Shown here: positions 19,013 through 40,866 of the stretch, piece after piece
Layout of the letters: each line of letters starts with the position of its first letter
How positions within the stretch are numbered: the stretch's first letter is position 1
NCBI RefSeq assembly: GCF_013155385.1
Contig: NZ_JABJUQ010000008.1
Coordinates: forward strand, 1 to 64,000
Origin: Bacillus sp. WMMC1349
GTDB taxonomy: Bacteria > Bacillota > Bacilli > Bacillales > Bacillaceae
DNA length: 64,000 nt
Reading direction: 5' to 3'
The notes under the pieces: model-generated
Seen by the model: only the letters and a program-made list of their open reading frames with translations
The model's database searches: none
What the model was told of the DNA's origin: nothing
Program-made: the position numbers and the translations under genes

Positions 19013-20425
19013 ATGAAATGTGTGATATATACAAGGGTCTCTACTGATCTACAAGCAGAAGAAGGAATATCATTAGATCTGCAAAAAGAAAGATTGGAGC
19101 AATATGCTCTTTCTCAAGGGTGGGAAATAAAAGAAGTATATACTGATGAAGGATTTTCTGCTAAAAATACAGAGCGACCAGCTTTTCAAAAAATGCTTAA
19201 TGACATGAAATCGAAAACTTTTGACATAATTTTGGTTTATCGCTTAGACCGCTTCACTCGTTCAGTTGTAGATTTATACGAAATACTAAAACAGATGGAT
19301 AGGTATAATGTGAAATTCAAATCATCTATGGAGATATTTGACACAACCACCGCTACTGGGCGAATGTTTATAACATTAGTAGCCACTTTAGCACAATGGG
19401 AAAGAGAAACAATTTCAGAACGTGTCAAAGATGCTATGAAAAAGCGTGCTGAAGAAGGAAAATTTAATGGTGGGAAAGTTCCTTATGGTTATAGATTAAA
19501 AAATGGAGAATTAGTTACACATAAAGAAGAAGCTAAACTTGTAAAGTTAATATTTGAACGCTCCATATCTCTAGGAGCCGGTGCATTATCGCGATACCTA
19601 AATAAAAATGGATTTAGAACAAGAAGTGGTTCATTATTTCAACGTGCAGGAATATTAAGCATAATAAACAACCCGATCTATATTGGAAAAATACGCTGGG
19701 GAGAAGAGGTTTATACTGATATCGCGCAAAAAAGCTTTGAACAAATCATTTCTTTAGAATTATGGGAACAAGTCCATAAATCGATGGATATAAGAAAAAA
19801 GAACAATACTAAATCATACCGGAAATACACATATTTATTTAGTGGTGTTTTTAAATGTGCTCGTTGTGGTAATCCACTTATGGGTTCTCCTAAATACCGA
19901 AAAGATGGTAGCGTTAGATACGGTTATAAATGCAAGGGACATTACTCATTAGGAATATGCGATCTCCCGCAATTTGGACAAGATTCACTGGAAAAAACAT
20001 TCTTAAACTTGTTAAAACTAACTGGTTTTAAAGACAAATTAGAAACAGATGAGACAAAAGATGATATGGGTAATATAAAGAAAAAAGTAAATGAATTAGA
20101 TGCAAAGAAAAAGCGTGCAAAAGAACTTTATATTGAAGGTGACTTAACAAAGAAAGAATATCGAGAAATGTTAGAGAATTATTCAAATATGCAATCAAAA
20201 CTTTTACAAAAAATCAAAACTGATTCTGAATCTGTAACACTTGAAGAGCTTGCCCTTTTCATTGAAAATATTCAAAGTGAATGGGTTAATTTAGATGACA
20301 TTGAAAAGAAATCAGCTATCAACGCAGTATTTGATTACGTAAAAGTTGATGTAAAAACTTTCTCTAAACCATCTCGATATTCTCAACCAGCAGAGATTAT
20401 CATTACTGAATATAAGTTAAATTAA
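19013..20425 (+). CDS. int: Large serine recombinase (integrase)
   Basis: 470 residues. The N-terminal resolvase domain (1-150) has the nucleophile Ser10 in YTRVSTD, with Arg8 and the YRLDRFTRS block (76-84). A recombinase domain follows (VPYGYRLKNG to about 265). Then comes a zinc ribbon with Cys282, Cys285, Cys307 and Cys316, and a coiled coil near 350-415 that in this family controls direction. It should join attP to a host attB; excision would need a direction factor, not recognised here. AAAGGAG is seven bases before the ATG. Its stop codon overlaps that of the convergent truncated tail gene, so attP, normally beside int, must lie at this junction or be lost. Confidence 0.95.
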   Translation: MKCVIYTRVSTDLQAEEGISLDLQKERLEQYALSQGWEIKEVYTDEGFSAKNTERPAFQKMLNDMKSKTFDIILVYRLDRFTRSVVDLYEILKQMDRYNVKFKSSMEIFDTTTATGRMFITLVATLAQWERETISERVKDAMKKRAEEGKFNGGKVPYGYRLKNGELVTHKEEAKLVKLIFERSISLGAGALSRYLNKNGFRTRSGSLFQRAGILSIINNPIYIGKIRWGEEVYTDIAQKSFEQIISLELWEQVHKSMDIRKKNNTKSYRKYTYLFSGVFKCARCGNPLMGSPKYRKDGSVRYGYKCKGHYSLGICDLPQFGQDSLEKTFLNLLKLTGFKDKLETDETKDDMGNIKKKVNELDAKKKRAKELYIEGDLTKKEYREMLENYSNMQSKLLQKIKTDSESVTLEELALFIENIQSEWVNLDDIEKKSAINAVFDYVKVDVKTFSKPSRYSQPAEIIITEYKLN

Positions 20426-20658
20426 TCGTGATTTTCTGACCATAACGGAGTATCCTTTATTGGCTTGCCATCAGCCCACTGAGTAGCTCTATACTCTAGT
20501 TCCTGTACAACAATATAGGCTGGCTTACTTTTGATCCCAATTGGTACAGCTAGTTCAAAAATATTTGATGGTTTCACCAATAATAAAAGCGCTGGATCAT
20601 TCTCCAACGCTTCAAATACTTTGTTTTTCAGTAGTAAAGACCTTTCTACTACATTCAT
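20422..20658 (-). CDS. Truncated DUF3168-like tail-completion protein
   Basis: 78 residues, MNVVERSLLLKNKVFEALEN onward, with a central PAYIVVQELEYRATQWADGK block. It resembles the N-terminal half of DUF3168/tail-terminator proteins that follow gp10-like genes; those are usually well over 100 residues. The reading frame ends inside the 3' end of the convergent recombinase gene, so the last residues (about SENHD) come from recombinase-strand DNA. The start overlaps the gp10-like stop (ATGA), with AGAGGG upstream. This is the breakpoint where all tail genes are missing. Probably non-functional. Confidence 0.7.
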   Translation of the reverse strand: MNVVERSLLLKNKVFEALENDPALLLLVKPSNIFELAVPIGIKSKPAYIVVQELEYRATQWADGKPIKDTPLWSENHD

Positions 20659-21053
20659 AGCTTGTACCCTCTTTTAATTACGCTTGCCATCGCTTGTAAC
20701 ATTCTTTCATTTGCGCTTCTCATACTTCGCTGAATAAATGGATTAGCTGGCTGATGAATGGTTCCGAATTCCGGTAAGTGAACACGGAATTTTGTGTCTT
20801 TAGTAGGTCCAACAACAGCATAGATTTCACCATCCAAATCCTTTCGAGTACGGTTTCCAACAATAATATCCTCATCAATATGGGGATGACTGCCCCCAAT
20901 ATCAGATCGAGGTGCATTTTTATCTATTTCTTTGGCAAGAATAGCACCCCCGGCTTTTACGGCTGCTTTATTGATTGACTCATCTTTCCTTGCAAGGTCA
21001 GTTAAATATGAATCTAATTCTTTAAAGCCCTGCATCTCCATTTCAAATTCCAT
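20655..21053 (-). CDS. HK97 gp10-like head-tail protein
   Basis: 132 residues of the HK97 gp10 family: MQGFKELDSYLTDLARK, then KAGGAILAKEIDKNAPRS, the conserved VHLPEFGTIHQPANPFIQRS and a C-terminal helix. These proteins finish the neck or tail-end side of the connector. The ATG overlaps the preceding stop (TAATG). It is the last complete gene of the head operon. Confidence 0.87.
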   Translation of the reverse strand: MEFEMEMQGFKELDSYLTDLARKDESINKAAVKAGGAILAKEIDKNAPRSDIGGSHPHIDEDIIVGNRTRKDLDGEIYAVVGPTKDTKFRVHLPEFGTIHQPANPFIQRSMRSANERMLQAMASVIKRGYKL

Positions 21054-21361
21054 TATTCCACCGCCTTTGCCCTTATTGTGGTGAAATGTTTCCGAGAATA
21101 GTTCGGCAAAATTGATTCAATCTCGTATGGTTGATCTTGAAAAAGAATTCGCATATGTTCGTTAAGATCTTCACGGTGACGAATTGTAAATTTTATAGTT
21201 TTTTCTTTCTGAACAGCTGCCGCTGCATAATACTCTCGGCCTTTTAATCCCTCAGCTTTGGCCCAGCATTCCACAACAGTTTCATACTTACCTTCCACAG
21301 GGAGGCGCCCGCCCTCTTTTTTCTGTTGAAATTCAATCCGATACCGCATGTCATTCAACAT
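21053..21361 (-). CDS. Head closure/head-tail adaptor, SPP1 gp16-like
   Basis: 102 residues, MRYRIEFQQKKEGGRLPVEG, EYYAAAAVQKEKTIKFTIRH, FQDQPYEIESILPNYSRKHF: the pattern of the SPP1-type head-tail adaptor family. These proteins plug the filled head and offer the docking face for tails. It overlaps the connector gene by 11 bases. For a tail-less element this is the surface that must fit a helper's tail. Confidence 0.85.
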   Translation of the reverse strand: MLNDMRYRIEFQQKKEGGRLPVEGKYETVVECWAKAEGLKGREYYAAAAVQKEKTIKFTIRHREDLNEHMRILFQDQPYEIESILPNYSRKHFTTIRAKAVE

Positions 21362-21653
21362 TGGAACCAGTCTCCGAAACCGTATATTTTAATTGATTGA
21401 TCATCATCGTTAGCACCCCATCAAGGTTTGAAGTTGTGCCAGCTACTTCCCTGTTTTCATACCAATGCGTTACAAATGCTTTTACACACATATCAGCTCG
21501 TGCTGAATGATTTGGGAACTTTAAACCAGTTGCAGCTGTAATATATTCCTTCGCCGAAGCGATAAATCCCAGGATTAAATCATCTTCCAAATCACCATCA
21601 ACCCTGAGAAATTTTTTCGCTTCTTTAAGTTCTTTTTGCTCAATTTCTGTCAT
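21351..21653 (-). CDS. Head-tail connector, HK97 gp6-like
   Basis: 100 residues, helical: LKEAKKFLRVDGDLEDDLILGFIASAKEYI-type start (visible KEAKKFLRVDGDLEDDLI) and a C-terminal MINQLKYTVSE. Typical of the gp6/gp15 connector that forms a ring under the portal. It lies just after the capsid gene, as in HK97-type operons. Confidence 0.85.
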   Translation of the reverse strand: MTEIEQKELKEAKKFLRVDGDLEDDLILGFIASAKEYITAATGLKFPNHSARADMCVKAFVTHWYENREVAGTTSNLDGVLTMMINQLKYTVSETGSNVE

Positions 21654-21681
21654 TGGGCATCACCTAGCTTTCATTCACCTA

Positions 21682-22962
21682 TTATTTGTTCTCACCAGAA
21701 CCGGGATTTGGAACCCCATTGTCTGGAGTTGCATCTTTGATTGATGAAAACTCTGCAAACACAACAGCATCAGTATCCCAAAGAACAACATCTTCACGTT
21801 CAATGATTCGCATATCTGTAGAATTACGATAGAATGCTTTACCGCCAACATTTGTCGTTAAAATGGAATATTGCTGACGGTCAAATAGTTTAACAGCTTC
21901 TTTAAGATCACCGACAATCAACGGATATTTTGGCGCTGCTTTTGTACCACCGTTTGGCAAATATTTATCAGATATAACGGACACAGGCTTTCCGAATAAA
22001 AGTTTTTTAGTCGGATCTGTTGGATTAGGCTGTAGTAAGTACCGGCCAAAAGCATCCTTCAATTTATCCAAAACATTAAATCCTGATTGATTTGTAATAA
22101 AAGAGGTTGTGGCGTTGATAGCTGGATCAAGCTTGACGTTCAAAATATCTTTAATATCGTCTTGCTTTGAAACTGCTGTTTTTACGAGTGTTCCTAATTG
22201 CTTAATAATCAACGTATTACGCGTAACAGCTGATTTCTTAGCGAGCCAATTGGTCAAATATTGAAGAAGCGCTTCTTGTGTATCTGAAAGCAAATCATTA
22301 GAAAGAACCAAAATTCCTGCATAATCTTTAATGTTATATTTAATGTTTTCAAATTTAGGATTCTCTAGTTCCGTAATATCCGCTAATTCTTCAAGGTTTG
22401 CTAATGGAGTGATATCTGCTAGTTTTTCAAGCACTCGTGAACCTTTATTTGTAGATACCGGAATGACATCAACGAGATTAGCCAGTGTATCAAATTGTCT
22501 ACGTTTTTCGTTGATCTTCGTTGAAATATCTTGCGGAACAACAAGACCGCCATCTTCATCCACACCTTCTTTCATTGCGGAAAGAGGTTTCGGTATTGTT
22601 CCAGATTTAAGAGCTGACGCAAAAAGCTGAACATGGTTCTTTACTTCCGTTTTGGCGATATCATCTGTTGGCTGTTGACCAGTTGCTACTGAATCTTGTG
22701 ATGTCTGCTCCTGTTCATAAGGGACTTGCATATTTCGGACTTCTTCATATGTCTGGATCTGCTCTTTTATTTGTTGAGCTTCAGAAAGTAGTTTTTTAGC
22801 TTCATCAATTTTCCCTTTGTCTGTCAATGCTTCAATTTCTGTACGCTTTTCTGCTAGCGTTTGGCGTAACTCCCGTTCTTTTTTAGACATTCCACCTCCA
22901 GCAAAAAATTGAATATCTAGTTTCAATAAAAAATTTTTTTGTTTTAATAGTTTCGGTTTCAA
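21682..22962 (-). CDS. Major capsid protein, HK97 fold
   Basis: 426 residues from a TTG start with a perfect AAGGAGG seven bases before it. The N-terminal LKLDIQFFAGGG leads into a coiled delta (scaffold) domain, about 25-105. The shell domain starts near DGGLVVPQDISTKI and continues through FDTLANLVDVIPVSTNKGS and later FGKPVSVISDKYLPN. The delta domain is normally removed by the protease encoded just upstream. An internal ATG (MSKKERELR) has a ribosome site only three bases away and is less likely. Confidence 0.94.
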   Translation of the reverse strand: MKPKLLKQKNFLLKLDIQFFAGGGMSKKERELRQTLAEKRTEIEALTDKGKIDEAKKLLSEAQQIKEQIQTYEEVRNMQVPYEQEQTSQDSVATGQQPTDDIAKTEVKNHVQLFASALKSGTIPKPLSAMKEGVDEDGGLVVPQDISTKINEKRRQFDTLANLVDVIPVSTNKGSRVLEKLADITPLANLEELADITELENPKFENIKYNIKDYAGILVLSNDLLSDTQEALLQYLTNWLAKKSAVTRNTLIIKQLGTLVKTAVSKQDDIKDILNVKLDPAINATTSFITNQSGFNVLDKLKDAFGRYLLQPNPTDPTKKLLFGKPVSVISDKYLPNGGTKAAPKYPLIVGDLKEAVKLFDRQQYSILTTNVGGKAFYRNSTDMRIIEREDVVLWDTDAVVFAEFSSIKDATPDNGVPNPGSGENK

Positions 22963-23001
22963 ATTCTTGTCCTCCTTAAAAGTGGCATTAAAAAAGAACC
23001 C

Positions 23002-23727
23002 TTAAAGATTTAAGAGTTCAAGTTTCATATCAATTTTTTGTTTTTGTAATTCATCCAATCCTGCTTCTTCAGCCGAATTTTCAGCAACTGTTTTAGCAAC
23101 TATCTTTCCTGGCACATGTTTAAAGTGTGCCAAAATTTGATGATCAATACAGGCTGCTACATCCTTTGATTCTGAGACCTCATCAATCAAACCATAATGT
23201 AATGCTTCATCAGCTGTCAGCCACGTTTCTTCATCAAGTAATTGATGTAAAGTAACATCATCCAGCTTGTCACCAGCTTTATCAAGGTATGTCGAAACAA
23301 TACTTTCTGTGATCTTGTCAAGATCATCGGCAGCCTTTCGAAATTCTGTTGCATTCCCGACCATTCCCATGTAAGGATTATGAATCATCATCATGGCGTT
23401 ACTTGGCATTGTAATGTTATCCCCCGCCATTGCAATAACTGAGGCAATACTTCCAGCCAGTGCATCCACATAAACATTAATTTTAGCTTTATGACGTTTA
23501 AGCATTGAATGAATCGCTTGGCCCTCAAAGACATCTCCTCCAGGTGAATTAATGTACAAATCAATAGAGCTTACATCACCTAAACTTTTCAATTCTGACT
23601 GAAAAACTTTAGAAGAACTCTCACTAAACCATCCTTCACCCGTTATTGAGCCATAAAGTGTGATTTCAGCAGTAGAATCATTCAGAATCTTCATGTTCCA
23701 ATACTTGTTTTTCTTCTTCGTTGCCAT
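23002..23727 (-). CDS. ClpP-like prohead protease
   Basis: 241 residues from MATKKKNKYWNMK, whose ATG follows AAGGGGGGTG; six further codons are open upstream. The ClpP/crotonase-like fold shows LYINSPGGDVFEG, catalytic Ser in DALAGSIASVIAMAG and His in MMIHNP (about residues 93 and 116 from this start). It cuts the capsid delta domain during head maturation. It starts 50 bases inside the portal gene, a usual overlap in HK97-type phages. Confidence 0.92.
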   Translation of the reverse strand: MATKKKNKYWNMKILNDSTAEITLYGSITGEGWFSESSSKVFQSELKSLGDVSSIDLYINSPGGDVFEGQAIHSMLKRHKAKINVYVDALAGSIASVIAMAGDNITMPSNAMMMIHNPYMGMVGNATEFRKAADDLDKITESIVSTYLDKAGDKLDDVTLHQLLDEETWLTADEALHYGLIDEVSESKDVAACIDHQILAHFKHVPGKIVAKTVAENSAEEAGLDELQKQKIDMKLELLNL

Positions 23728-24982
23728 CACCCCCCTTCTGTTCATCAGATGTCCCTTTTACTTTGTTCAATTGATATTCTTTCATAATTGAAAGAGGAAC
23801 AAGATTTAAATTCCCATAATGCTCATCCCCAATATCTCCAATTCCGGTCATGTCCTCTTTTTGAAGGATTGTGTTTACGCTAAAAGCGCCAACACTTTGC
23901 ATCGTTTTATAAAACTCAGCACGAGATTTACTATCTCCACGAAGTTCTGATTCTAGGTTAAATTTAAAGTAATAACCACTTTTTAACTGGTTTTCTGTCA
24001 ATATTTTATCGTTCAATTCTTGTTCTATATTTGTCACTAAAGGTTGTAACGTCGTTTTGACATAATCCAATGATTGTTGTTCGATATTAGAGAAAGTGGC
24101 TCGATCAAGTTCACCTATTTTATGTGGTGGTACCTTATAAATAGATGCGATCTGCTGACGGTTCCATTTCATGGACTCAATAAATTGAGCATCCTTCATC
24201 GGCATGGTTACTTGTGAATAGTCGAGACCAGCGTCTAGGACTGCAATAGACTGACCCGCATTTACACGCTCCCAGTCTTCTCTCACAATTTTTTTACTTT
24301 CTCTATCTAATAGAGTTGGTGCTTTGACAACGCCAAACGGAGCGCCACCATTTTTATAAAATTTTGCATTGAATTTTGTGGCAGCTCGATTTGATCCGAT
24401 ATTGTCACGAATAACTGAAATCGGAGTTTGTCCCACAATTCCATCAAGAGAAAGGTTTTTAAAATGCAGAACTTCTTCATAAAAAAACTCACGATATTTG
24501 CTGTCAATCGTGGTTGAATACCAAACCCGACCGTTATTAGGGTCAATATTTGTATTTGTTGCCTCAGGGTTTAAAGGTCTGATTCCAGTCACATTTCCGT
24601 CTTTATCAAAAAGCAAAAGATTGTAACTGTTCCCCCAAGTACAAAGCCTTGTGACCAAAAGCCTTTTCCAAATAAAACTTGTCATATAATCATTGACTTT
24701 GTTCAGAATCATCTCACTAATATCATTTTGGACTTGTTTGATATTGCCGTTTTTATTCTGAAAAAGTTTGATTGGCAGTTTCGCGATATCATCCGCCAAA
24801 ACTATGACACATGCATAAACATCGGGATGAAGAACAGCTGTTTTTGATGATACTCTTTCACCTGATGAGGTTTCAGTGCCAGCAAAAATATTTCTAAACC
24901 AATTGGCTGGATGAAGAAGGGAGCCGCTATCCTCTTCTGCGATTTCATTCTTGACCCCGCCCTTTAAACGGCTTAATAGCAT
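23678..24982 (-). CDS. Portal protein, HK97 family
   Basis: 434 residues. Family landmarks: HPDVYACVIVLADDIAKLPI near 52-71, WGNSYNLLLFDKDGNV, and IASIYKVPPHKIGELDRATF with SNIEQQSLDYV in the C-terminal half. The acidic, Glu-rich tail is typical. It forms the dodecameric DNA channel at one head vertex and is the docking site of the terminase motor. The start is the stop-side neighbour of the DUF1056-like gene. Confidence 0.94.
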   Translation of the reverse strand: MLLSRLKGGVKNEIAEEDSGSLLHPANWFRNIFAGTETSSGERVSSKTAVLHPDVYACVIVLADDIAKLPIKLFQNKNGNIKQVQNDISEMILNKVNDYMTSFIWKRLLVTRLCTWGNSYNLLLFDKDGNVTGIRPLNPEATNTNIDPNNGRVWYSTTIDSKYREFFYEEVLHFKNLSLDGIVGQTPISVIRDNIGSNRAATKFNAKFYKNGGAPFGVVKAPTLLDRESKKIVREDWERVNAGQSIAVLDAGLDYSQVTMPMKDAQFIESMKWNRQQIASIYKVPPHKIGELDRATFSNIEQQSLDYVKTTLQPLVTNIEQELNDKILTENQLKSGYYFKFNLESELRGDSKSRAEFYKTMQSVGAFSVNTILQKEDMTGIGDIGDEHYGNLNLVPLSIMKEYQLNKVKGTSDEQKGGDGNEEEKQVLEHEDSE

Positions 24983-25182: not shown

Positions 25183-26892
25183 CTACAGGCTGAAAGATCC
25201 TGACTTGATATAAGCATTTAAGTCAATCGTCATATCAATTTGAGATGCTCTCACATGTGCATTAATAAGGGCTGCAGCAGGGTCAATCCGTTGTGTTGAC
25301 TTTGATTTGTCCAGCATGATATTTTCTTGAGCATCTACTTTTGTAACAGCATTACCCATCGCCCATGTCAGTAGATCGTTTTTATTATGGATGATGTTTT
25401 TCGCCTTTACTTTTTCGCGAAAGTCTTTTGTAGGCTCTGAAAGTGTGGCAACTCCCTGCCTAATTTCAATCATCACATATCCGTCAGCCTCCATCTGTTG
25501 AGCAAACTGTGTCGCATTATATGGATCGTAACCGATTTCTTTAATTTTCCATCCTTTCTCTTTCTCCATTTTCTTGATATAAGCTCTGATATAGTCATAA
25601 TCAACTACAGCACCATCAGTAACGGTTAACCAGTTCCTCTCCCTCCACAAGTCATAAGGGACATGATCTGTCTTCATACGTTCATAGAATGTATCTTCAG
25701 GCATAAAACCATGACTTTCTACAGCAAAGCTCCCATCATCTAACGGAAAAATAAAAGATACGGCTGTCAGGTCAATTCGTTTTGATAAGTCAATTCCAAC
25801 ATAGCACTCCCGGCCGGATAGATCAGGAAAATGATCAGATCCACAATCTTTCCAAGCTTGCATGTCCATGTAGCCATTTTCACGCATGTTAACCCAGATA
25901 TTCATATTCTTAGTCAGAAAGTTCCTCATTTTCTCTGGTACAGCCAAGGCAACTTCCAACTCTCCACGCAGATAATTAAGTCCATGTTCATTTTTAGCAA
26001 CAATAGGATTGGCTTTGATCCAGTTCTGCTCATCCTTAATGTCATCACCTTTGTCTAATTCATTAACCATCACAAAATACTGCTCATTTGTTTCTACTTT
26101 ATTTGGATCTAAAATGCGTGACACGTAATCATATTCAACGCGGTAGGCAGGGTTATTTAATTCAAAACCGGCAGTCGTAATAATGACCATTAACGGCTGA
26201 TTTCGTGCAGCCATACCAGAAACAAGTACATCATATATTTCAGATGTTTTATGTGCGTGATATTCGTCTATAATTCCGCACTGAGGATTGAACCCATCTC
26301 CTGTTTTCCCTGCATCTTTAGAGAGTGCCTCAATTTTAGATTGTGTTTTTGGATGTTCAATTTTCCCGTAGGCAATCCTATATTTTTGCTCAGGTTTATT
26401 TAATAGCTCACACTGAAGAATCTGTGCTTTGATCTCATTCCAACATATTTTTGCTTGCTCAGTTTTCGTTGCCCCAATGTAGACCTCTGACATATTTTCA
26501 TCATTTGCCATAGCTTCATAAGAAGCAACACAAGCTAAACTTTGTGTTTTCGCGTTCTTACGTCCAACTTGCCAATATACTTTTGTGAATCTGCGATACC
26601 TTGTTTCTTTGTGAACCCACCCATACACATTGCCAAAAATAAAAATTTGGATTGGTTCGGGGACAATATTTTCTCCTGCGAGAGGTCCTTTTGTATGCTT
26701 AAACTGAGTCATCCAATAAAGAAACCGTCTAGCTTTCTCGTCATCAAATATATAAGGGAACTCCCTTGTTCCTTCTCTCTTAATGTCATTTAAAAAGCGA
26801 TGACAAGCCCAAATATGTTTTTGACACGCCACAATCTCACCCGATATCACATCGCGCGAGTAGTCAATCATAAACTGTTTAATTGTATTCAT
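25183..26892 (-). CDS. terL: Terminase large subunit
   Basis: 569 residues, full length for the family. ATPase part: Walker A-like VGRKNAKTQ at 109-117, Walker B CGIIDE at 205-210 and coupling motif ITTAG at 238-242. Nuclease part: Asp368 in YVGIDLSKR with Asp374, and later acidic residues. It cuts concatemers and pumps DNA into the head through the portal. Its ATG overlaps the terS stop (ATGA). Packaging of the array in unit-length multiples would depend on this enzyme and a cos-type site. Confidence 0.97.
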   Translation of the reverse strand: MNTIKQFMIDYSRDVISGEIVACQKHIWACHRFLNDIKREGTREFPYIFDDEKARRFLYWMTQFKHTKGPLAGENIVPEPIQIFIFGNVYGWVHKETRYRRFTKVYWQVGRKNAKTQSLACVASYEAMANDENMSEVYIGATKTEQAKICWNEIKAQILQCELLNKPEQKYRIAYGKIEHPKTQSKIEALSKDAGKTGDGFNPQCGIIDEYHAHKTSEIYDVLVSGMAARNQPLMVIITTAGFELNNPAYRVEYDYVSRILDPNKVETNEQYFVMVNELDKGDDIKDEQNWIKANPIVAKNEHGLNYLRGELEVALAVPEKMRNFLTKNMNIWVNMRENGYMDMQAWKDCGSDHFPDLSGRECYVGIDLSKRIDLTAVSFIFPLDDGSFAVESHGFMPEDTFYERMKTDHVPYDLWRERNWLTVTDGAVVDYDYIRAYIKKMEKEKGWKIKEIGYDPYNATQFAQQMEADGYVMIEIRQGVATLSEPTKDFREKVKAKNIIHNKNDLLTWAMGNAVTKVDAQENIMLDKSKSTQRIDPAAALINAHVRASQIDMTIDLNAYIKSGSFSL

Positions 26893-27407
26893 ACATTACC
26901 AAACTCCTTTTCCGCTGCCGTCTTTTCTCGTTCTTCCTGAGTTTTGGTGATGGCTAGTTTTGCACGTGCAGACGGTGTAAGGCCAAAATGGTTGGCCGCA
27001 GATATCATCTGATCATAATAATTTTTCTCGCGTTTAAGAAGGGGATGTTCTTCACCAACCGACTTGATGGGCTGACCATTTTCATTACACCCTTCTGTGT
27101 TTATCATGATGCCATCTTCATCAATTTTTTTTGTAATAGAAATATATCGAGAGTAAATCTTACAATAGGTGGCCAACATGTTGATATCCGCCTCTGTGAT
27201 GAGATCCACTTCAGACAATAAAGCAGCAACCCGTTTAAATTCTTTTTTAGCTACCTTATCATCCAACCATGAAGGAGGCTTAATATTTTCAGTACGCATT
27301 TTCATTTGTTTTTCATATTTAGCTCTGGTGGCTAATTCCTCAGTATTCTTTTTATTCGGATTACCCTGTATTAGTTGAAGAGCTGCAGATTTTGCGGGTC
27401 TCGGCAT
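26889..27407 (-). CDS. terS: Terminase small subunit, P27 family
   Basis: 172 residues from MPRPAKSAALQLIQGNP, whose ATG has GAGGTG six bases before it; three further codons from a GTG are open upstream. The P27-type signs are the N-terminal RP.K...L.GNP motif, a PPSWLDDKVAKKEFKRV block and C-terminal FGLTPSARAKL. It recognises the packaging start on concatemeric DNA and directs TerL. Confidence 0.92.
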   Translation of the reverse strand: MPRPAKSAALQLIQGNPNKKNTEELATRAKYEKQMKMRTENIKPPSWLDDKVAKKEFKRVAALLSEVDLITEADINMLATYCKIYSRYISITKKIDEDGIMINTEGCNENGQPIKSVGEEHPLLKREKNYYDQMISAANHFGLTPSARAKLAITKTQEEREKTAAEKEFGNV

Positions 27408-27635
27408 GTTTTTCACCTCATTTCGTTAAAAAAATCTTCTTTTTTCGCTTGTTTTTTCCGTCAAACATGCTATGATGAAACTAACAATCAAATCGTTTAT
27501 ATCAAGCCCTCTTGGCAAATCGCCGAGAGGGTATTTTGTATTTTTCGGGAACTTTGAAAAGCGGTGTTTGTTTGCAGAAGAGGGCGCGCCGTTCCCCAGA
27601 CGGTTGTTTTCCAAAGATTTTAGTAGGGGGGTATC

Positions 27636-28010
27636 CTACTGCCCTAGCTTACTTCGATCACCATGAACCTTGTTATGGCAAGCATTACAGAGACTTTCAA
27701 GGTTTGAAAGGTCTAAACGCTTGGACCAGTCCTCTTTTACTTCCACAATGTGGTGAACCATGTCAGCAGGTATGAAGCGATGTTCCCTCAAACATCTCTG
27801 ACAAAGATAGTTGTCTCTTAACAAAGCAAGTTGTCTTGTTTGCTTCCAATCAGTTGATTTATAAAAACTTGTAATTGTTTTGTCTCTTGAATGTTTGTTG
27901 TATTGTTTTGTTTCCTCTTGCTTGATGTGCTTATGATCATGGCAATAGGCTTCTCTAGTTAGTGCCTTACACCCATAGGCCTTACACTCCCTTAACGGCT
28001 TAGGTGGCAT
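27636..28010 (-). CDS. HNH endonuclease (copy 2)
   Basis: Identical product to the gene at 7195; same neighbours. Confidence 0.88.
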   Translation of the reverse strand: MPPKPLRECKAYGCKALTREAYCHDHKHIKQEETKQYNKHSRDKTITSFYKSTDWKQTRQLALLRDNYLCQRCLREHRFIPADMVHHIVEVKEDWSKRLDLSNLESLCNACHNKVHGDRSKLGQ

Positions 28011-28350
28011 TGTTATCCTTCCTTCGGTTGTAAAGAGATCGATTGTAAACGATTGCTTTTGTTCCATACTTGCTATCTTTATCGACAAATTCAATGTCAA
28101 TATGCGTTGGATTAAGCGTTGAATCATCCCTAGTTAAGTATGAAAAATCTGCATTTATAATCTTGTCAATTTTTTTACCGTTATAAAAAATACGTGGCGG
28201 AGAATCAATATCATCAAGTTCAATTTGAAGTAAAGGTGGTGCCATTTTCTCTTTAGTTGTGATTGATTGATACGGTTGATATGGACCATTTACTACCCTT
28301 TCCAATAGGTCAGATATACTCATATTGGCTAAATCCTTTTTAAAATCCAC
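28000..28350 (-). CDS. Hypothetical protein before HNH (copy 2)
   Basis: Identical product to the gene at 7559. Confidence 0.7.
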   Translation of the reverse strand: MDFKKDLANMSISDLLERVVNGPYQPYQSITTKEKMAPPLLQIELDDIDSPPRIFYNGKKIDKIINADFSYLTRDDSTLNPTHIDIEFVDKDSKYGTKAIVYNRSLYNRRKDNNAT

Positions 28351-30854: not shown

Positions 30855-31067
30855 TCATGAATAACCATGCTTTTCGAGCGCTGCCCTTACCTTGTCGAGA
30901 TCGTATTCAATACCATCAATTTCGATATACTCTAAATCGTCGTTTAAAAAGCCATAGCGACGTTTTAACTCTATTAGACTATCAATGTTCCTCCATAGGG
31001 TGTTATGCCCCACAGTGCGCCTATAATCGTTTTTATAGCGTATAATCAGACGCTTAGCTGTTCCCAT
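30855..31067 (-). CDS. Hypothetical protein between rusA and ssb (copy 2)
   Basis: Same as 10414. Confidence 0.6.
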   Translation of the reverse strand: MGTAKRLIIRYKNDYRRTVGHNTLWRNIDSLIELKRRYGFLNDDLEYIEIDGIEYDLDKVRAALEKHGYS

Positions 31068-31470
31068 TCTTCTGTCGCCCTTGTAATCTGAACTCGATTC
31101 CTGGCTTTTCACCGTACTTTTTACAAGCAGTTACTTTTGAAACTTGGTTATCATCTTTCCAAGCAATTTTGTTTAGAGCATCGAACACGCCTTTTATAAG
31201 ATTGTCGATGTCTGGCTTTTTGGTATGCAGCGTATTGATGGATTGTTGCTGTTTTTTCTTTGACCAACTTTTAGGAATCGGCATAACGAAAGTGATATCT
31301 ACATGGAGTGCTCCCGATTCAAAAGGATCGCTTTTCATCTGTTTCTGCGCTTCCCACTTGATGAAATCTTTATAGGCTAAGTATCGTTGAGCGTTTTTAT
31401 TTACGAATTTGCCACGCCCAGTCATTCGAACGGCTCCCATTGGTGTAACGGGTATGTTAAGGGTGATCAT
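31054..31470 (-). CDS. rusA: RusA-family resolvase (copy 2)
   Basis: Identical product to the gene at 10613. Confidence 0.92.
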   Translation of the reverse strand: MITLNIPVTPMGAVRMTGRGKFVNKNAQRYLAYKDFIKWEAQKQMKSDPFESGALHVDITFVMPIPKSWSKKKQQQSINTLHTKKPDIDNLIKGVFDALNKIAWKDDNQVSKVTACKKYGEKPGIEFRLQGRQKNGNS

Positions 31471-32428: not shown

Positions 32429-32577
32429 TAGGCGCTCTCCTTTATCGCTTTTTCCATTTCGCGCATTTTCTCTTCTAGCATTTTGATAACTGGTGTCAGG
32501 TCTTTGCCTTTCCCTGTCTTCCTTGGCGACAATTCGTAAACTCCCGGCATCAATGGAATGATTTGATAGTTTTTCAT
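32428..32577 (-). CDS. 49-residue protein (copy 2)
   Basis: Same as 11987. Confidence 0.6.
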   Translation of the reverse strand: MKNYQIIPLMPGVYELSPRKTGKGKDLTPVIKMLEEKMREMEKAIKESA

Positions 32578-33392
32578 TTCCAAGCTCCTAATCTATGATT
32601 TAATTTCATCCGGTCACCCTTGATGATGACTATATAGTTCTCACACATTTCATAAATCCGTGTGCCGAGTGCTTCGTCTATTTGTACAAGCTGCTCAATA
32701 TCCAATTCACTTGAAATGAGAATCGGCTTATGATTGAGATAACGATAATTGATGACTGAATATGTCTGTTCCACCTGCCAATCAGTTGCCCTAGGTTTAC
32801 CCTTCAGAGGCTTAAATAGATCGTCTATAAAAAGGACATCAACCTCTTTCATTCGCCGTAGCTTCTCTTCCAATTTTTCAAAATCATCTTTCAGATCATT
32901 GAAGCCCTCGACATATGGAAAGTATTGAACTGGCACGTTTTTCGATTTGATTAATTTATTTGATATGGCTGTAAGTAAATGTGTCTTTCCTGATCCTGGC
33001 TGTCCCAAAAGGGCAATGCTGTTTTTACGTTTATCCTTGATACTGTCGAAATTCTTATAGTAATCAACAGCGCAATCGTAAGCATCAACGATCAGACCGT
33101 GTTTCCCTTCCGTAACAAAATTCTTGAATTGTAATTTCTCAAACTCTGCAGTTATGTCACTAGAATTCATTAATTTCCTAATTCGACGCCACTCAACACA
33201 TTTACAGCGTACCCACACCTCAATGCCGTCCCTGTTTTCTAGATAACCCAATTCATCCTTACAAGTGGGACAGTCATATTCACCCTTTTTTTCTAAGGCG
33301 TCCGACTCTTCCACCAAAGATTGAGCTGACCTTTCCTGAAGCTTCTTCAGTATTTTCTCCATAGCTTTGTCCGTACGGTTGTTGGTTGCCAT
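32574..33392 (-). CDS. DnaC-like helicase loader (copy 2)
   Basis: Identical product to the gene at 12133. Confidence 0.88.
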   Translation of the reverse strand: MATNNRTDKAMEKILKKLQERSAQSLVEESDALEKKGEYDCPTCKDELGYLENRDGIEVWVRCKCVEWRRIRKLMNSSDITAEFEKLQFKNFVTEGKHGLIVDAYDCAVDYYKNFDSIKDKRKNSIALLGQPGSGKTHLLTAISNKLIKSKNVPVQYFPYVEGFNDLKDDFEKLEEKLRRMKEVDVLFIDDLFKPLKGKPRATDWQVEQTYSVINYRYLNHKPILISSELDIEQLVQIDEALGTRIYEMCENYIVIIKGDRMKLNHRLGAWK

Positions 33393-34143
33393 TTCTCGTT
33401 CCCCTTCTTTCTTCTTCATTCTTCTGAACTACTAATCTGGCATATTGTTTTCGCAATTTATCAGCACTTAAAATATTTTTGTACCAGAATTCGTGTTTAG
33501 TAGACCACAAGATCACTTCTTGAATATCTTTTCCTGTGCGTCCGTCACGTTCCATCATCAGTCGAATTGTATTAGCCCATTTATCAAGGTTTGGTTGTTT
33601 CATGTCAGGGGCGTTTATATGGACATGTTTCCAAAGCAATTCAGCCAGCTGCATTTGTTTTTCATCAAAAACCAAACGTTTATTATTATTATTATTTTCC
33701 TTCTTTACCTTCTTTACATTCTTATTATTGTTCCATCTGCGTTCCGTCTCCGTTCCATCTGCGTTCTCTCTCCGTTCCAAGTTGCCTTTTTTGTAGTTCT
33801 CTAACCCCTGATATACCTCATAATTTACGACAGTGAAGAGCGTTCCAAGTTCGGTGTCCTCGATTTTCAAACGATTTTCTTTAATCAGTCGATCAACCGC
33901 CCTTTTGATCCTCGAAAGTGAATACTGTTTGACCGATCTATTTTCGATATACTGCAAGTCTTTTTGTAAATTTCGATATGATCTTAAAAATTGACCGCGC
34001 TTCACCAAAACATCGCCTTTTCGTTGCCCCTCTTCCGAAAAAACTGCATTTCCATAAATAAAGAAGAATAGACGGAATTCGACTGGGTTTTGCCATATAT
34101 CGCTTGTAAAAATGTCTCTACTTGTTTGGAACGCTCCGCCCAT
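33280..34143 (-). CDS. DnaD-like replication initiator (copy 2)
   Basis: Identical product to the gene at 12839; internal origin-like repeats at 33679-33786. Confidence 0.82.
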   Translation of the reverse strand: MGGAFQTSRDIFTSDIWQNPVEFRLFFFIYGNAVFSEEGQRKGDVLVKRGQFLRSYRNLQKDLQYIENRSVKQYSLSRIKRAVDRLIKENRLKIEDTELGTLFTVVNYEVYQGLENYKKGNLERRENADGTETERRWNNNKNVKKVKKENNNNNKRLVFDEKQMQLAELLWKHVHINAPDMKQPNLDKWANTIRLMMERDGRTGKDIQEVILWSTKHEFWYKNILSADKLRKQYARLVVQKNEEERRGTRNGNQQPYGQSYGENTEEASGKVSSIFGGRVGRLRKKG

Positions 34144-34158: not shown

Positions 34159-34818
34159 TTATGCTAATTCTTTCTCTGCTTTAGCCACCCATCTTTTAAG
34201 TAGATAGATACAATGGTCAGCTTGCCCTTTATTGATTTTGTTAATATCTTTGATGTCAAGAGCTGTTATAACGGTCTTCACATCGCCTTGTCCACGCAAT
34301 TCAATATAATGTTGAGCAAGGGATTGAATTTCATCCTTTTGCTCCTGTGTGATCATTTCAGGTGGTTTTGTCGCTTCTACTTTTTGTTGAAATGCGTCTG
34401 GATCGTCTTTATCTGTCGGAATGTTGAATTGTTTCAAAAGAAAATATTTTTCAGCGTATGTCAAAGCCTTACCGACTCCCTTTTCTCCTGCTATATCAAC
34501 ACCCTGTGCATAAAAAGGGACAGTCAACGTTTCTTCGGGATTTTCTGCATTCACCCAAATAAATTCAAGGTCTAATTCTGTGAAATATGTCGTTTTCTTT
34601 TTCTGATTGCCGTACTTATCTTTACTTTCAACTGTTTCTGTTAAGATGCGTTTGTCTACAATTTTCGGAATCAGTAAAAGCGTTTGTTTGTCTAATTCAT
34701 CTCTGATAGCGCCTAAAACCTGACTTGATCCGACATATTCGTACTGGTTTCCTTTGTTTTCTTTTTGGAGATACGGGATCGCCTTTCTGACCTCGATCAG
34801 CTTTTGATAAATATTCAT
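34159..34818 (-). CDS. erf: ERF annealing protein (copy 2)
   Basis: Identical product to the gene at 13718. Confidence 0.9.
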   Translation of the reverse strand: MNIYQKLIEVRKAIPYLQKENKGNQYEYVGSSQVLGAIRDELDKQTLLLIPKIVDKRILTETVESKDKYGNQKKKTTYFTELDLEFIWVNAENPEETLTVPFYAQGVDIAGEKGVGKALTYAEKYFLLKQFNIPTDKDDPDAFQQKVEATKPPEMITQEQKDEIQSLAQHYIELRGQGDVKTVITALDIKDINKINKGQADHCIYLLKRWVAKAEKELA

Positions 34819-35399
34819 TATTCGTTCACCTCGACTGTGAATTTATCTTCCCTATCAACCACTGTCACACCTGAAATAATCTCGCCATCTGCGTCTATTA
34901 GCTTGTCCCCGAAAACTGAAGATTTCTTTTTAATGGATGCCCAATCAACGTCTTTTTTAATTTTGACTAACCCTTTTGTTTCCGCGTATTTCAACAAGTC
35001 GGTTTCATTACGTTGATATTCCGGCTGCTGCTTGGTAAGCTTAATTTTTCCATACGGTAGATTGATTGACTTATATGGCTTTTTGCCACTTTCAATCTGC
35101 CTTCTGACTTCTTCCCGCATGTATCGCTCTAGTCTATGGATATAGAAGTTTTCACGCTCGACATATGGTTTTTTAGACTCATCACGCCAAAACTCAACCC
35201 GTTCAATTTGAGTTCTGAGGCGTTCAAGCTGCTTTTCAGCCACTGCATCTATTTCTGATTGTTTCCCTTTAAAGTAAGTGATGCGCCGTTGTGCTTCGGC
35301 TGCTGATTCTAGGTCAGTCACCTCAAACACTTCATAATCCTTTTCCTCTTCTTCGACCTGATCGATTAACACTTGTTCTGTTTCTGGAAGACTACTCAT
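34818..35399 (-). CDS. Gam/Gp157-like protein (copy 2)
   Basis: Identical product to the gene at 14377. Confidence 0.8.
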   Translation of the reverse strand: MSSLPETEQVLIDQVEEEEKDYEVFEVTDLESAAEAQRRITYFKGKQSEIDAVAEKQLERLRTQIERVEFWRDESKKPYVERENFYIHRLERYMREEVRRQIESGKKPYKSINLPYGKIKLTKQQPEYQRNETDLLKYAETKGLVKIKKDVDWASIKKKSSVFGDKLIDADGEIISGVTVVDREDKFTVEVNE

Positions 35400-36695: not shown

Positions 36696-37352
36696 CTAAT
36701 CTACTGGCTGTATATATCTCGGACGCTTCTTTATCACTCTCTGCACTTCACCAGTTGTATTGTTAACCAATACTTGCTTTCCTCTGTGATCAGTCCCCAT
36801 TGTGTAAGTATCAATCCCCTTTTCCTCAGCAAACTCTTCTAACAAACCTTTTTGTCCTTCTGCTCTTCGTAAGGCACTGACTGTTGATAGCGATTCGATC
36901 ATAAATGATGTAATATCCGAGTTTTGATAATCTGAAATAAAGTCAAATACTTCTCGTTCTGTTCCAATGCAATTGTCTAGTCCCTTTTCTTCAATAACTC
37001 GCATTGTGTAAAAATAGTCTTTCATTTCATATTTATCACCGTCATAATGCTTTTCGACCGGGAACATCTGCATCAATTCCCTTGGCGTTAACCAACCTAT
37101 CATTGTATTGATAGAGCCAATAATGTGAAATCTCGTTAGTACGTCTTCATATGTTTCAGGCATGTCCTCACTATTAATCATTTTTAAACCACTAAAGACA
37201 ACTCTTTTGAGGGTCTCTCTTTCAATAGATCCCTGGCTTTCGCATTGTGCCAATCCTTCGTATAGCTCATTTAAAAATATTTTTCGATAGATCGAATAAT
37301 AATCCACCTTTTCCTTTTGAATACCATCTATAACCTGCAATTGATTTGACAT
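36696..37352 (-). CDS. Hypothetical protein after antirepressor (copy 2)
   Basis: Same as 16255. Confidence 0.7.
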   Translation of the reverse strand: MSNQLQVIDGIQKEKVDYYSIYRKIFLNELYEGLAQCESQGSIERETLKRVVFSGLKMINSEDMPETYEDVLTRFHIIGSINTMIGWLTPRELMQMFPVEKHYDGDKYEMKDYFYTMRVIEEKGLDNCIGTEREVFDFISDYQNSDITSFMIESLSTVSALRRAEGQKGLLEEFAEEKGIDTYTMGTDHRGKQVLVNNTTGEVQRVIKKRPRYIQPVD

Positions 37353-38167
37353 TATGAAACCGCCTCTTCTTTCGTTAGAAACTTATTGATGAAATATACT
37401 TGACCCTTGCCAGTGACTTTAGGTGTCTTACTGATACTGATATGACCATCTGAATGTGTTATAGATGTTTCCTTAATTTCGAACAATCCACTTTCCATGC
37501 TCTTTTGAGTTGGCATGTTGTAATCTGTCCCTTTTCGCTTTATTAAATATCCGTTGTCTCTTAACCATGCGAAAAATCGTTTCTGTCCCGTTTCAATTCC
37601 ATTCTGTTTTAATAGTTTTGCAAGCTCCCCCACCAAAATAGATGTACTGGATGCTGACACACTATCCGCAAACAGAACTTTAGGTTTGTTTTGCTCAATT
37701 TGCTTTTTTAGTTGATTGTTCTGATTTCGCAAATCTAGCACCATTGCTTGCTTTACTTCATCACTGAAACTAGGAAAATAGTTTTTAATGAATTGTTCTT
37801 CGTTACCTTTATTAACGTATCCGCCCGTTTTTCTAATTATAGGTAGCACTTCAGAGGTTACCCATCGTTTAAATTTTTTTGCCTTCTCTTTAATTTCTCG
37901 ATTGTTCCCTTGTTTTGCAGCTCCAAATATTAAATCGTATAAACCTGATTCATTTACGAACTTTTTCTTTTGTTTTCTTCCTATTCTGTCGATGACTCCG
38001 TGGACCGCGGAGTCATCTTCCTCAACATGGTTTTGAATTGCATTATGTGGTTTCGAAAAGCTTAATGCTTTAGCAATTTCCTTTGCTCCAAACCACTCAA
38101 CTCCATCCACTATCATTACAGGTAAATCTCCAAAAATTTTATGATTAAACGTTTGTAATTCATTCAT
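37352..38167 (-). CDS. Antirepressor (copy 2)
   Basis: Identical product to the gene at 16911. Confidence 0.92.
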   Translation of the reverse strand: MNELQTFNHKIFGDLPVMIVDGVEWFGAKEIAKALSFSKPHNAIQNHVEEDDSAVHGVIDRIGRKQKKKFVNESGLYDLIFGAAKQGNNREIKEKAKKFKRWVTSEVLPIIRKTGGYVNKGNEEQFIKNYFPSFSDEVKQAMVLDLRNQNNQLKKQIEQNKPKVLFADSVSASSTSILVGELAKLLKQNGIETGQKRFFAWLRDNGYLIKRKGTDYNMPTQKSMESGLFEIKETSITHSDGHISISKTPKVTGKGQVYFINKFLTKEEAVS

Positions 38168-38302
38168 TTATGAAATCTCCTTTTTTTGTTTTGCCTTTCG
38201 TTCTTTAATAATTGAATGCATGCTCGGTCTTATCTCTTGAACAAATGTAATAGCATACTTTCCGCTAAGAACAATTGATTCAACTGATTTGTTTTTTTTC
38301 AT
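38168..38302 (-). CDS. 44-residue protein (copy 2)
   Basis: Same as 17727. Confidence 0.55.
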   Translation of the reverse strand: MKKNKSVESIVLSGKYAITFVQEIRPSMHSIIKERKAKQKKEIS

Positions 38303-38547
38303 TAAGAAACATCCCTCTCTATATCTAACATTTTGTTAGGTTTTAGTTTAAAAAAAATGATTTCTGAAAAGTCACACCCAAATACATCAGCTAGTGCCAC
38401 ACCTTCTTCTATCTCCATCTTTTGCGGATTTCTCTCCCACGAAGAGTAAGTAGTTCTATGAATACCTAAGGCTTTAGCTACATCGTCTTGAGTTAAATTT
38501 AAACGCGCCCTCCATTCTTTTGGAGTTCTTGCAATTTTATATTCCAA
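38302..38547 (-). CDS. Cro-like regulator (copy 2)
   Basis: Identical product to the gene at 17861. Confidence 0.88.
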   Translation of the reverse strand: MEYKIARTPKEWRARLNLTQDDVAKALGIHRTTYSSWERNPQKMEIEEGVALADVFGCDFSEIIFFKLKPNKMLDIERDVS

Positions 38548-38709
38548 TTTACCTCACCTCCTCACACGTTAATAATATCTAACATTTTATTAGATGTCAA
38601 CGATTTTTACACCATTTTTATATATTTGCGTTGTTTTTTCTAACTGTATGTTTGCTATAGCTAACATTTTGTTTTATAATAACAACATAAATAACAAGGA
38701 GGTGAAAAA
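38548..38709. promoter_or_regulatory. Lysogeny switch (copy 2)
   Basis: Same promoters and operators as 18107-18268. Confidence 0.8.
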
Positions 38710-39372
38710 ATGGGGAAAAAAATAAACTTCGCCAAAAACATAGCAAGGATTAGAACAGAGTTAGGACTTTCTAAAGCTGAATTCGGAAAGCGACTTGGCT
38801 TTTCTGATGTCACAATAGGGTATTGGGAGCGAGGGGAACGAACTCCCAAGACAGGTACAATTGAAACGCTAGCAAGAAAACTAGGAGTTAGCACAGCCGA
38901 ATTGATTTTTGACAATGTGGGCGAACAAAATACGCATAGTAGTATTGTTCCGATGACAGAGACAGTTCCTATATATGGATCTATTCCTGCAGGTTGCCCT
39001 AAATGGGCAGATGACAATATCATAGGTAGCCTTCCAATCCCTGATAAATTAATTAAAATGTATGGTTTGGAAAACCTCGTATCTTTGAAAATCGAAGGAG
39101 ATAGCATGAACAAAATAGTGCCTAATGGTTTTTATGCTGTTATAGATACTAAAACTAAAGAAGTTGCAAACGGTGATATTGTAGCTGTCCGTATCAATGG
39201 TTATGAAACAACACTGAAAAGATTTTACCAAACAAACAACAGCATTATTCTTGAGCCAGACTCATACAATCCTGAACAAAAACCTTTTATTTTTGATTGC
39301 ACCAATCCTTTTGAATGTCCTGAAATTACAATAACGGGAAAATACGTATGGAGTTGTGCGCCGATTGATTAA
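38710..39372 (+). CDS. CI-like repressor (copy 2)
   Basis: Identical product to the gene at 18269. Confidence 0.94.
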   Translation: MGKKINFAKNIARIRTELGLSKAEFGKRLGFSDVTIGYWERGERTPKTGTIETLARKLGVSTAELIFDNVGEQNTHSSIVPMTETVPIYGSIPAGCPKWADDNIIGSLPIPDKLIKMYGLENLVSLKIEGDSMNKIVPNGFYAVIDTKTKEVANGDIVAVRINGYETTLKRFYQTNNSIILEPDSYNPEQKPFIFDCTNPFECPEITITGKYVWSCAPID

Positions 39373-39453
39373 TTCATAATTTACCAACGCGGGAGACTAC
39401 CCGCTCTTCTTTTACAACCAAAAGAACATACATTCTGATAAAGGAGAATAAGG

Positions 39454-40866
39454 ATGAAATGTGTGATATATACAAGGGTCTCTACTGATCTACAAGCAGA
39501 AGAAGGAATATCATTAGATCTGCAAAAAGAAAGATTGGAGCAATATGCTCTTTCTCAAGGGTGGGAAATAAAAGAAGTATATACTGATGAAGGATTTTCT
39601 GCTAAAAATACAGAGCGACCAGCTTTTCAAAAAATGCTTAATGACATGAAATCGAAAACTTTTGACATAATTTTGGTTTATCGCTTAGACCGCTTCACTC
39701 GTTCAGTTGTAGATTTATACGAAATACTAAAACAGATGGATAGGTATAATGTGAAATTCAAATCATCTATGGAGATATTTGACACAACCACCGCTACTGG
39801 GCGAATGTTTATAACATTAGTAGCCACTTTAGCACAATGGGAAAGAGAAACAATTTCAGAACGTGTCAAAGATGCTATGAAAAAGCGTGCTGAAGAAGGA
39901 AAATTTAATGGTGGGAAAGTTCCTTATGGTTATAGATTAAAAAATGGAGAATTAGTTACACATAAAGAAGAAGCTAAACTTGTAAAGTTAATATTTGAAC
40001 GCTCCATATCTCTAGGAGCCGGTGCATTATCGCGATACCTAAATAAAAATGGATTTAGAACAAGAAGTGGTTCATTATTTCAACGTGCAGGAATATTAAG
40101 CATAATAAACAACCCGATCTATATTGGAAAAATACGCTGGGGAGAAGAGGTTTATACTGATATCGCGCAAAAAAGCTTTGAACAAATCATTTCTTTAGAA
40201 TTATGGGAACAAGTCCATAAATCGATGGATATAAGAAAAAAGAACAATACTAAATCATACCGGAAATACACATATTTATTTAGTGGTGTTTTTAAATGTG
40301 CTCGTTGTGGTAATCCACTTATGGGTTCTCCTAAATACCGAAAAGATGGTAGCGTTAGATACGGTTATAAATGCAAGGGACATTACTCATTAGGAATATG
40401 CGATCTCCCGCAATTTGGACAAGATTCACTGGAAAAAACATTCTTAAACTTGTTAAAACTAACTGGTTTTAAAGACAAATTAGAAACAGATGAGACAAAA
40501 GATGATATGGGTAATATAAAGAAAAAAGTAAATGAATTAGATGCAAAGAAAAAGCGTGCAAAAGAACTTTATATTGAAGGTGACTTAACAAAGAAAGAAT
40601 ATCGAGAAATGTTAGAGAATTATTCAAATATGCAATCAAAACTTTTACAAAAAATCAAAACTGATTCTGAATCTGTAACACTTGAAGAGCTTGCCCTTTT
40701 CATTGAAAATATTCAAAGTGAATGGGTTAATTTAGATGACATTGAAAAGAAATCAGCTATCAACGCAGTATTTGATTACGTAAAAGTTGATGTAAAAACT
40801 TTCTCTAAACCATCTCGATATTCTCAACCAGCAGAGATTATCATTACTGAATATAAGTTAAATTAA
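39454..40866 (+). CDS. int: Large serine recombinase (copy 2)
   Basis: Identical product to the gene at 19013; again convergent with a truncated tail gene. Confidence 0.95.
   Translation: MKCVIYTRVSTDLQAEEGISLDLQKERLEQYALSQGWEIKEVYTDEGFSAKNTERPAFQKMLNDMKSKTFDIILVYRLDRFTRSVVDLYEILKQMDRYNVKFKSSMEIFDTTTATGRMFITLVATLAQWERETISERVKDAMKKRAEEGKFNGGKVPYGYRLKNGELVTHKEEAKLVKLIFERSISLGAGALSRYLNKNGFRTRSGSLFQRAGILSIINNPIYIGKIRWGEEVYTDIAQKSFEQIISLELWEQVHKSMDIRKKNNTKSYRKYTYLFSGVFKCARCGNPLMGSPKYRKDGSVRYGYKCKGHYSLGICDLPQFGQDSLEKTFLNLLKLTGFKDKLETDETKDDMGNIKKKVNELDAKKKRAKELYIEGDLTKKEYREMLENYSNMQSKLLQKIKTDSESVTLEELALFIENIQSEWVNLDDIEKKSAINAVFDYVKVDVKTFSKPSRYSQPAEIIITEYKLN

Follow-up and report, generated by a model that had tools for sequence, protein, structure and literature searches.

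The DNA analyzed here, called the window below, is a stretch of 64,000 nucleotides from Bacillus sp. WMMC1349 and corresponds to bases 1-64000 of contig C8 (NZ_JABJUQ010000008.1; 88,528 bp) in a genome of eight contigs and 4.51 Mb (GCF_013155385.1). It contains three head-to-tail copies of a phage-type unit, each of ~20.44 kb, together with the start of a fourth; the copies start ~20,440 bp and then 20,261 bp apart. The units carry early, packaging, and head genes, and to this extent a preliminary description of the window, made from its letters, is borne out. Judged by its sequence, the window is a deletion derivative of a resident 45.39-kb temperate phage, which is present in full elsewhere in the same genome.

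Gene calls rest on profile searches (Pfam, PHROG, and TIGR/NCBIfam identifiers; Table 1). They agree with the earlier listing of recombinase, repressor, antirepressor, replication and recombination genes, an HNH-TerS-TerL block, and head genes, and they find no tail or lysis gene in C8, as had been stated for every copy. The integrase has the TP901-1 integrase domain as its best PDB sequence match. For the DnaD-like protein, the NCBIfam search gave no match, and weaker PHROG matches point to "replication initiation O-like" families (e.g., phrog_391). None of the PADLOC families matched the five unknown proteins tried. The gap between the HNH and TerS genes is the expected place of cos, since phi105 has its annotated cos after the HNH region. 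The phi105 cos-end word GCGCTCC is not found in this gap and occurs in the window at chance level (four copies vs. 2.0 expected), so the predicted cos is placed by gene order only.

The units had been described as ending at the integrase stop codons (20422 and 40866), but the true boundary is a junction, at 20450/20451 and 40891/40892. Over the 20,441 bp between these junctions, the unit at 20451-40891 and the chromosomal prophage are identical but for one substitution, with no gaps. This unit retains codons 1-69 of a tail-terminator gene; single-base gaps put the stub out of frame in the window's other two copies, which we take for assembly noise. The remaining units that span the substitution show extra small differences, mostly gaps and concentrated in the end units of C8, and these too we take for noise of assembly. 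There are two kinds of junction, J1 and J2, and their order along the whole of C8 is J1, J1, J2, J2. The contig may be a circle unrolled by the assembler.

The DNA of the unit is also found in the chromosome, near the end of contig C7, where it continues at the head end into ~25 kb that are not in C8. There the parent is a complete phi105-like prophage of 45.39 kb, with all modules, inserted in cysK. Most of contig C7 was covered by searches. The same phage occurs in C5, which repeats with a period of 45,391 bp, holds attP, and may be an excised circle, a concatemer, or a tandem prophage, and in C6, which extends from the early region across the head and tail modules and attR into chromosomal DNA. 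In profile searches the head genes of C5 are followed by a tail terminator, major tail protein, head-tail adaptor, tape measure (1483 amino acids), and Dit, then by a tail endopeptidase, an appendage-type protein, a minor tail/fiber protein, a small tail-fiber-like protein, holin, and endolysin; beyond the lysis genes lie an LXG-deaminase toxin gene, an insertion sequence (IS) transposase, and a UvsX-like protein (phrog_97). Tail and lysis genes directly adjoin the same head module in both C7 and C5.

These contigs answer the proposal of the preliminary description that the unit is a capsid-forming phage-inducible chromosomal island (cf-PICI), a satellite that makes its own heads. A search of the rest of the genome for a related full prophage had been suggested as a check, and such a prophage is found in C7, C5, and C6. 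The proposal had also named what would speak against it, and both observations are made here: the phage occurs in full length with identical sequence in the sample, and the integrated copy is continuous at its head end with genes for tail and lysis. We therefore reject identity with a cf-PICI, given the contiguity of these genes with the head module in the chromosome.

Several further observations concern the parent prophage. Its LXG-domain polymorphic toxin with a deaminase domain (PF04740, PF14424; C5:22063-24651), beside the lysis genes, is lost from the head-only unit. The IS transposase gene (C5 stretch L015:5468-6751) lies between two open reading frames that match two halves of phrog_5208, so the insertion probably splits that gene; a 1808-bp stretch around the transposase recurs at 100% in contig C1. 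Near 4,028,100 in C7, substitutions and gaps are clustered within ~60 bp of the endolysin gene. They occur in C7 only, and since C2, C5, and C6 agree at the endolysin, the pattern suggests a local error of assembly close to where the contig ends.

A 20-bp core is common to attL and attR, which flank the whole 45.4-kb phage, not 20.4 kb. When the two outer flanks are joined, the resulting attB is identical at 70 out of 70 bases to a prophage-free relative (G006, locus L082). The integration gene cysK (TIGR01139) is cut in its last codons, for which the prophage end provides a substitute. The arms of attP are symmetric about the step between an A and a C (A/C), which tied for best among the 25 centers tried, and from this symmetry we infer that A/C is the putative crossover step. 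Around the same step attB is symmetric in the short arms GATAT/ATATC only.

All four junctions in C8 contain the integrase-side half of attP, beginning at the base after the A/C step. Their partners are two points in the tail-terminator gene 181 bp apart, the J2 point lying upstream, and both J1 and J2 occur in C8 only among the contigs compared. Two different junctions that share one breakpoint at the center of attP are not expected of random joining or of library chimeras. At 13 of 20 bases the target of J1 agrees with the right half of attB, and nine of 45,391 positions, the target among them, score as high; corrected for eight half-site comparisons the figure is ~0.002, and full-site comparisons were made besides. 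Over the full site its match to attB peaks at offset 0 (20/40, vs. ≤15 at the 24 neighboring offsets from -12 to +12). attB spans the cysK codons for Y-Q-F-D, and the J1 target the tail-terminator codons for Y-Q-I-D. This likeness is common to relatives of the phage: Out of 32 loci, 30 could be aligned, and each of these agrees with the right half of attB at 11-14 of 20 bases. No close relative of the parent's integrase was found in the same collection. The likeness therefore comes from conserved coding of the tail terminator and not from selection.

The lone substitution is located between the repressor gene and the cro-like gene, which are divergent. It is private to C8, being found in four out of four units that span the position, and C5, C6, and C7 are wild type; its presence in all spanning units suggests that the J1 and J2 units form one lineage that replicated apart from the full phage, with J2 most simply a trimmed J1. 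The changed base falls in the spacer of an early promoter that matches the consensus at 11 of 12 bases. A scan gave three promoter-like sites compared with 2.7 in shuffled sequences, so it is by its score and position that the promoter is called. The spacer also contains a predicted operator, the palindrome CTAACAAAATGTTAG, which the substitution turns into CTAATAAAATGTTAG. The wild-type palindrome has two exact copies and one copy with two mismatches, all within 351 bp at the switch, and occurs nowhere else in the 45-kb phage at two mismatches or fewer; in 20 Markov-simulated sequences there was no exact copy, and the mean count at this threshold was 0.2. The changed base is C in all three wild-type copies. 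The chance that a lone substitution would fall in that 15-bp site is 15/20,441 (~7e-4), or 45/20,441 (~2e-3) for any of the three sites. The change should weaken binding of the repressor at the predicted early promoter. We found no close repressor relatives suitable for operator footprinting (best, 35-36%).

Table 1. Features of the window, with positions numbered from its first base
Feature	Position	Strand	Remarks
First unit in window	1-20450	-	Contig starts at head end of unit; 23 differences, mostly gaps
Complete unit, J1 to J1	20451-40891	-	20,441 bp; head end 20451, integrase end 40891
Next complete unit, J1 head end	40892-61331	-	Against prophage: one substitution, one gap
Start of J2-type unit	61332-64000	-	Full unit 20,260 bp, 181 bp missing at head end; runs on in C8
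Junction J1	20436-20458 (also 40877-40899)	-	Tail-terminator sequence joined to integrase-side attP half
Junction J2	61317-61340	-	Upstream tail-terminator point joined to same attP base
Large serine integrase	39454-40866 (also 19013-20425, 59894-61306)	+	470 aa; PF00239, PF07508, PF13408; phrog_95
CI/LexA-type repressor	38710-39372	+	220 aa; phrog_4; LexA C-terminal match under its cutoff
Third operator (predicted)	38661-38675	-	Two mismatches; upstream of repressor gene
Early promoter (predicted) with operator palindrome in spacer	38572-38600 (also 18131-18159, 59012-59040)	-	TTGACA-N17-TATTAT; C-to-T at window 38589
Cro-like regulator	38302-38547	-	81 aa; phrog_3
Second operator (predicted)	38325-38339	-	Wild type; inside cro-like gene
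Antirepressor	37352-38167	-	phrog_130
Gam-like end protection and Erf-like annealing proteins	34159-35399	-	phrog_2205, phrog_155
DnaD-like and DnaC-like helicase loaders (replication)	32574-34143	-	phrog_2514, phrog_50
RusA-like resolvase	31054-31470	-	phrog_140
SSB	30311-30748	-	phrog_44
ArpU-family late activator	28838-29215	-	TIGR01637; phrog_248
HNH endonuclease	27636-28127	-	PF01844, phrog_144
HNH-TerS gap (predicted cos)	27408-27635	-	Expected cos place, by comparison with phi105 gene order
Terminase small and large subunits	25183-27407	-	PF05119, PF03354, PF20441, phrog_83
Portal, ClpP-like protease, HK97-type capsid, connector, head closure, gp10-like	20655-24982	-	PF04860, PF00574, PF05065, PF05135, PF05521, PF04883
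Tail-terminator stub	20451-20658	-	Cut after codon 69 by J1; phrog_78; full gene C5:6912-7295

Taken together, we regard it as probable that the unit is a repression-escaping, head-only replicon resembling lambda-dv, made by the phage's own integrase. The integrase would act on attP, or on the prophage's attL, and join it to a sequence within the tail-terminator gene of the same phage; whether attP in a circle or attL in the prophage were the partner, the product would be the same. The genome would thereby split into a 20.4-kb circle, with integrase, switch, replication, terminase, and head genes, and a 25-kb tail-lysis piece that, without these switch, replication, and terminase genes, would be lost. 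A second integrase event would probably trim the 181 bp that distinguish J2. The operator change would then let the head circle replicate in an immune lysogen, and with holin and endolysin gone the cell need not be killed. The circle could persist as a multicopy replicon that may be oligomeric and would function like lambda-dv, and its retained late activator and head genes may allow heads to be made. In lambda with PR repressed, replication does not start even when O and P are supplied in trans (excerpt of PMC5043065); a plasmid-like derivative in a lysogen would thus need relief from repression, and we infer that escape from repression and replication in lysogens apply here.

Several observations weigh against this reading. 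The 25-kb tail circle is not seen among the contigs compared. At its central step the J1 target reads AG instead of AC, and its likeness to attB, being shared by relatives, does not mark an evolved site; the J2 target has AC but no likeness to attB (14/40, with 7137 of 45,391 positions scoring as high). For the A118 integrase, a change of either central base in one site abolished recombination, according to part of PMC3556126. The symmetry of attB is weak, and the scan of centers did not choose A/C for this site. At three mismatches or fewer the operator word is not enriched (seven copies, against a simulated mean of 3.9 and maximum of 8), and the case for altered repression depends on one substitution only.

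The same circle might also travel. If it were packaged, for example as 40.9-kb dimers between cos sites, in its own or the parent's heads, and if an induced parent prophage supplied tails and lysis, it would be a nascent, self-made satellite and spread as a defective-interfering phage. We consider this possible but unlikely; it is compatible with, and not opposed to, a lambda-dv-like replicon. The terminase and head genes and the HNH-TerS gap with its expected cos are kept, the parent phage is in the same genome, and twice 20,440 bp is 0.90 of 45,391 bp, a length that a cos phage is predicted perhaps to accept. However, the absence of the phi105 cos word from the gap leaves cos a prediction, and a non-transmissible replicon would show the same structure. 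Only tentatively, then, would we see in an integrase attack at the head-tail boundary, yielding a repression-escaping head-only replicon that is packaged as a dimer and completed by the parent's tails and lysis, the first step toward a capsid-forming satellite. If true, the birth of such a satellite would be seen beside its parent in one genome assembly. A true cf-PICI that uses the tails of a helper is scarcely credible: the extrachromosomal unit does have head and packaging genes and no tail or lysis gene, but the integrated copy belongs to a full phage whose att sites flank 45.4 kb rather than 20.4 kb, the early region is of phage type (CI/Cro, antirepressor, DnaD/DnaC), and the unit is one base from the resident phage, with tailed phages as the near relatives of its capsid.

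The units could instead be ordinary defective genomes that the integrase made in a lytic burst, the operator change being neutral and repression not escaped. Junctions centered on att require the integrase alone, and defective interfering genomes with large deletions arise spontaneously in many viruses, less commonly in phages (PMC8635385, in part). This account is nevertheless rather improbable, because the sole private substitution is found in all four spanning units and lies inside an operator, at the odds given above. Illegitimate recombination, or a chimera of sequencing or assembly in which the integrase had no role, would suit a contig that may be an unrolled circle and the many small gaps in its end units, as well as the mismatched central step of J1. 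Yet two junctions use the same breakpoint base at the center of attP (~3 in 45,391 per event within 1 bp), and the private substitution sets the lineage apart from the full phage; we judge this explanation highly improbable. The junctions of integrase type and the private operator change likewise weigh against the label of a mere deletion artifact, which the preliminary description had held in reserve. Its suggestion of a phage-derived element caught soon after loss of its tails holds in a narrower sense, in that the deletion looks recent, integrase-made, and clonally propagated, with an operator mutation; as a satellite island it does not stand.

To our knowledge, the origin of tail-less satellites from phages is an open question. 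Here a single assembly contains both parent and derivative, which differ by one base over 20 kb; the enzyme, the two breakpoints, and the likely immunity-escape change can all be read from it, and the first step in formation of a tail-less derivative becomes testable by ordinary methods. Because attB is ordinary coding sequence, a phage gene can resemble it by chance (YQID against YQFD of cysK), and a serine integrase may for this reason act on the genome of its own phage. In the open-access literature searched, we found no direct report of self-attack or autointegration by a phage integrase, or of operator-mutant deletion replicons.

Concatemeric contigs of this kind can be wrongly taken for satellites or plasmids. 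Two linear "plasmids" of B. paralicheniformis FUA2150 (NZ_CP154903 and NZ_CP154904; 15.35 kb, with head and early regions) were considered as parallels and rejected. They have the same homologous capsid start, with capsid, protease, or portal genes in pieces, and so look like assembly fragments of two related prophages; judged from the plasmid records only, they are likely prophage fragments mislabeled as plasmids. Among 60 of 539 records, a 23.95-kb Piscirickettsia plasmid with TerL has terminase genes and no annotated capsid, and is not a parallel either. A 41.5-kb circular "plasmid" of B. velezensis (NZ_CP085707) is a phage of the present kind that has an AimR-type gene besides its head, tail, and lysis genes. 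In the genome studied here, contigs C3 and C4 hold another repeated unit, of 24.15 kb, with a TcpC/TraG-like conjugation protein, an Alp7A-like actin, and a Rap phosphatase. It is not found whole in the chromosome contig and is probably a conjugative-type plasmid. In C4 this unit appears as inverted copies that swap around a ~1-kb stretch, which may be a hairpin artifact or a real inversion.

Among known systems, the unit is functionally closest to lambda-dv: It derives from a temperate phage and keeps the switch and replication genes. Early lambda-dv isolates derived from lambda vir with operator mutations, and lambda-dv forms tandem oligomers. As described in excerpts of PMC5043065 and PMC3349717 (the latter citing Matsubara and Kaiser 1968), lambda-dv is a piece of a temperate phage that has the early promoter and replication genes and is an autonomous replicon, its replication being controlled by repressors at the early-promoter operator. 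It can be as small as 2.4 kb (cro-cII-O-P; PMC5043065, in part), whereas the present unit has 20.4 kb with head, packaging, and integrase genes, and its replication genes are DnaD/DnaC-like.

The junctions recall the Int-promoted deletions of lambda, which are made by an integrase and end at the att crossover point; Davis and Parkinson, in about 1971, reportedly described such deletions with one end fixed at this point. The enzyme in lambda is a tyrosine integrase, in contrast to the large serine integrase of the parent phage, and the deletion seen here removes 55% of the genome and leaves an apparent replicon. With the large serine integrases of A118/TP901-1 type the enzyme class is shared, and for A118 an intramolecular attP x attB deletion gave two circles, of which only the origin-bearing one was kept (PMC3556126, in part). 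The partner in our case is not an attB put in place but a pseudo-site within a tail gene of the phage itself, and J1 has a mismatch at its central step. No close relative of the parent's integrase was found among the genome contigs, the viral contigs, or the 44 genomes that make up the genus set (best, 36%), and its best phage matches are in Paenibacillus larvae phages (42%).

Like a defective interfering genome, the unit has a large deletion of trans-acting genes, keeps replication functions, and is found in the same sample as its parent; it differs in that it keeps the head genes. With cf-PICIs it shares an extrachromosomal form that has head and packaging genes and lacks tail and lysis genes, although the integrated element has both. 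It is not a discrete island with its own att sites, since attL and attR bound the whole phage; its genome is not distinct from that of its would-be helper (one substitution in 20,441 bp); and its CI/Cro, antirepressor, and DnaD/DnaC genes represent temperate-phage regulation and replication rather than the PICI-type module. At 20.4 kb it also compares with an average of 14 kb for cf-PICIs (excerpt of PMC10803314).

The nearest relatives are phages of the phi105 kind; such relatives, together with the genus set, suggest a host in the Bacillus subtilis group. About 750 bp around the late-activator gene are 78% identical to phi105 DNA, and IMG/VR contains 31 loci with close capsid relatives (84%-89% identity), which have the same order of the head-tail module. 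In 30 of the 31 a tail terminator follows gp10, and 29 have a tape measure. The exceptions are all at contig ends, and the head module of the unit thus belongs to ordinary tailed phi105-like phages.

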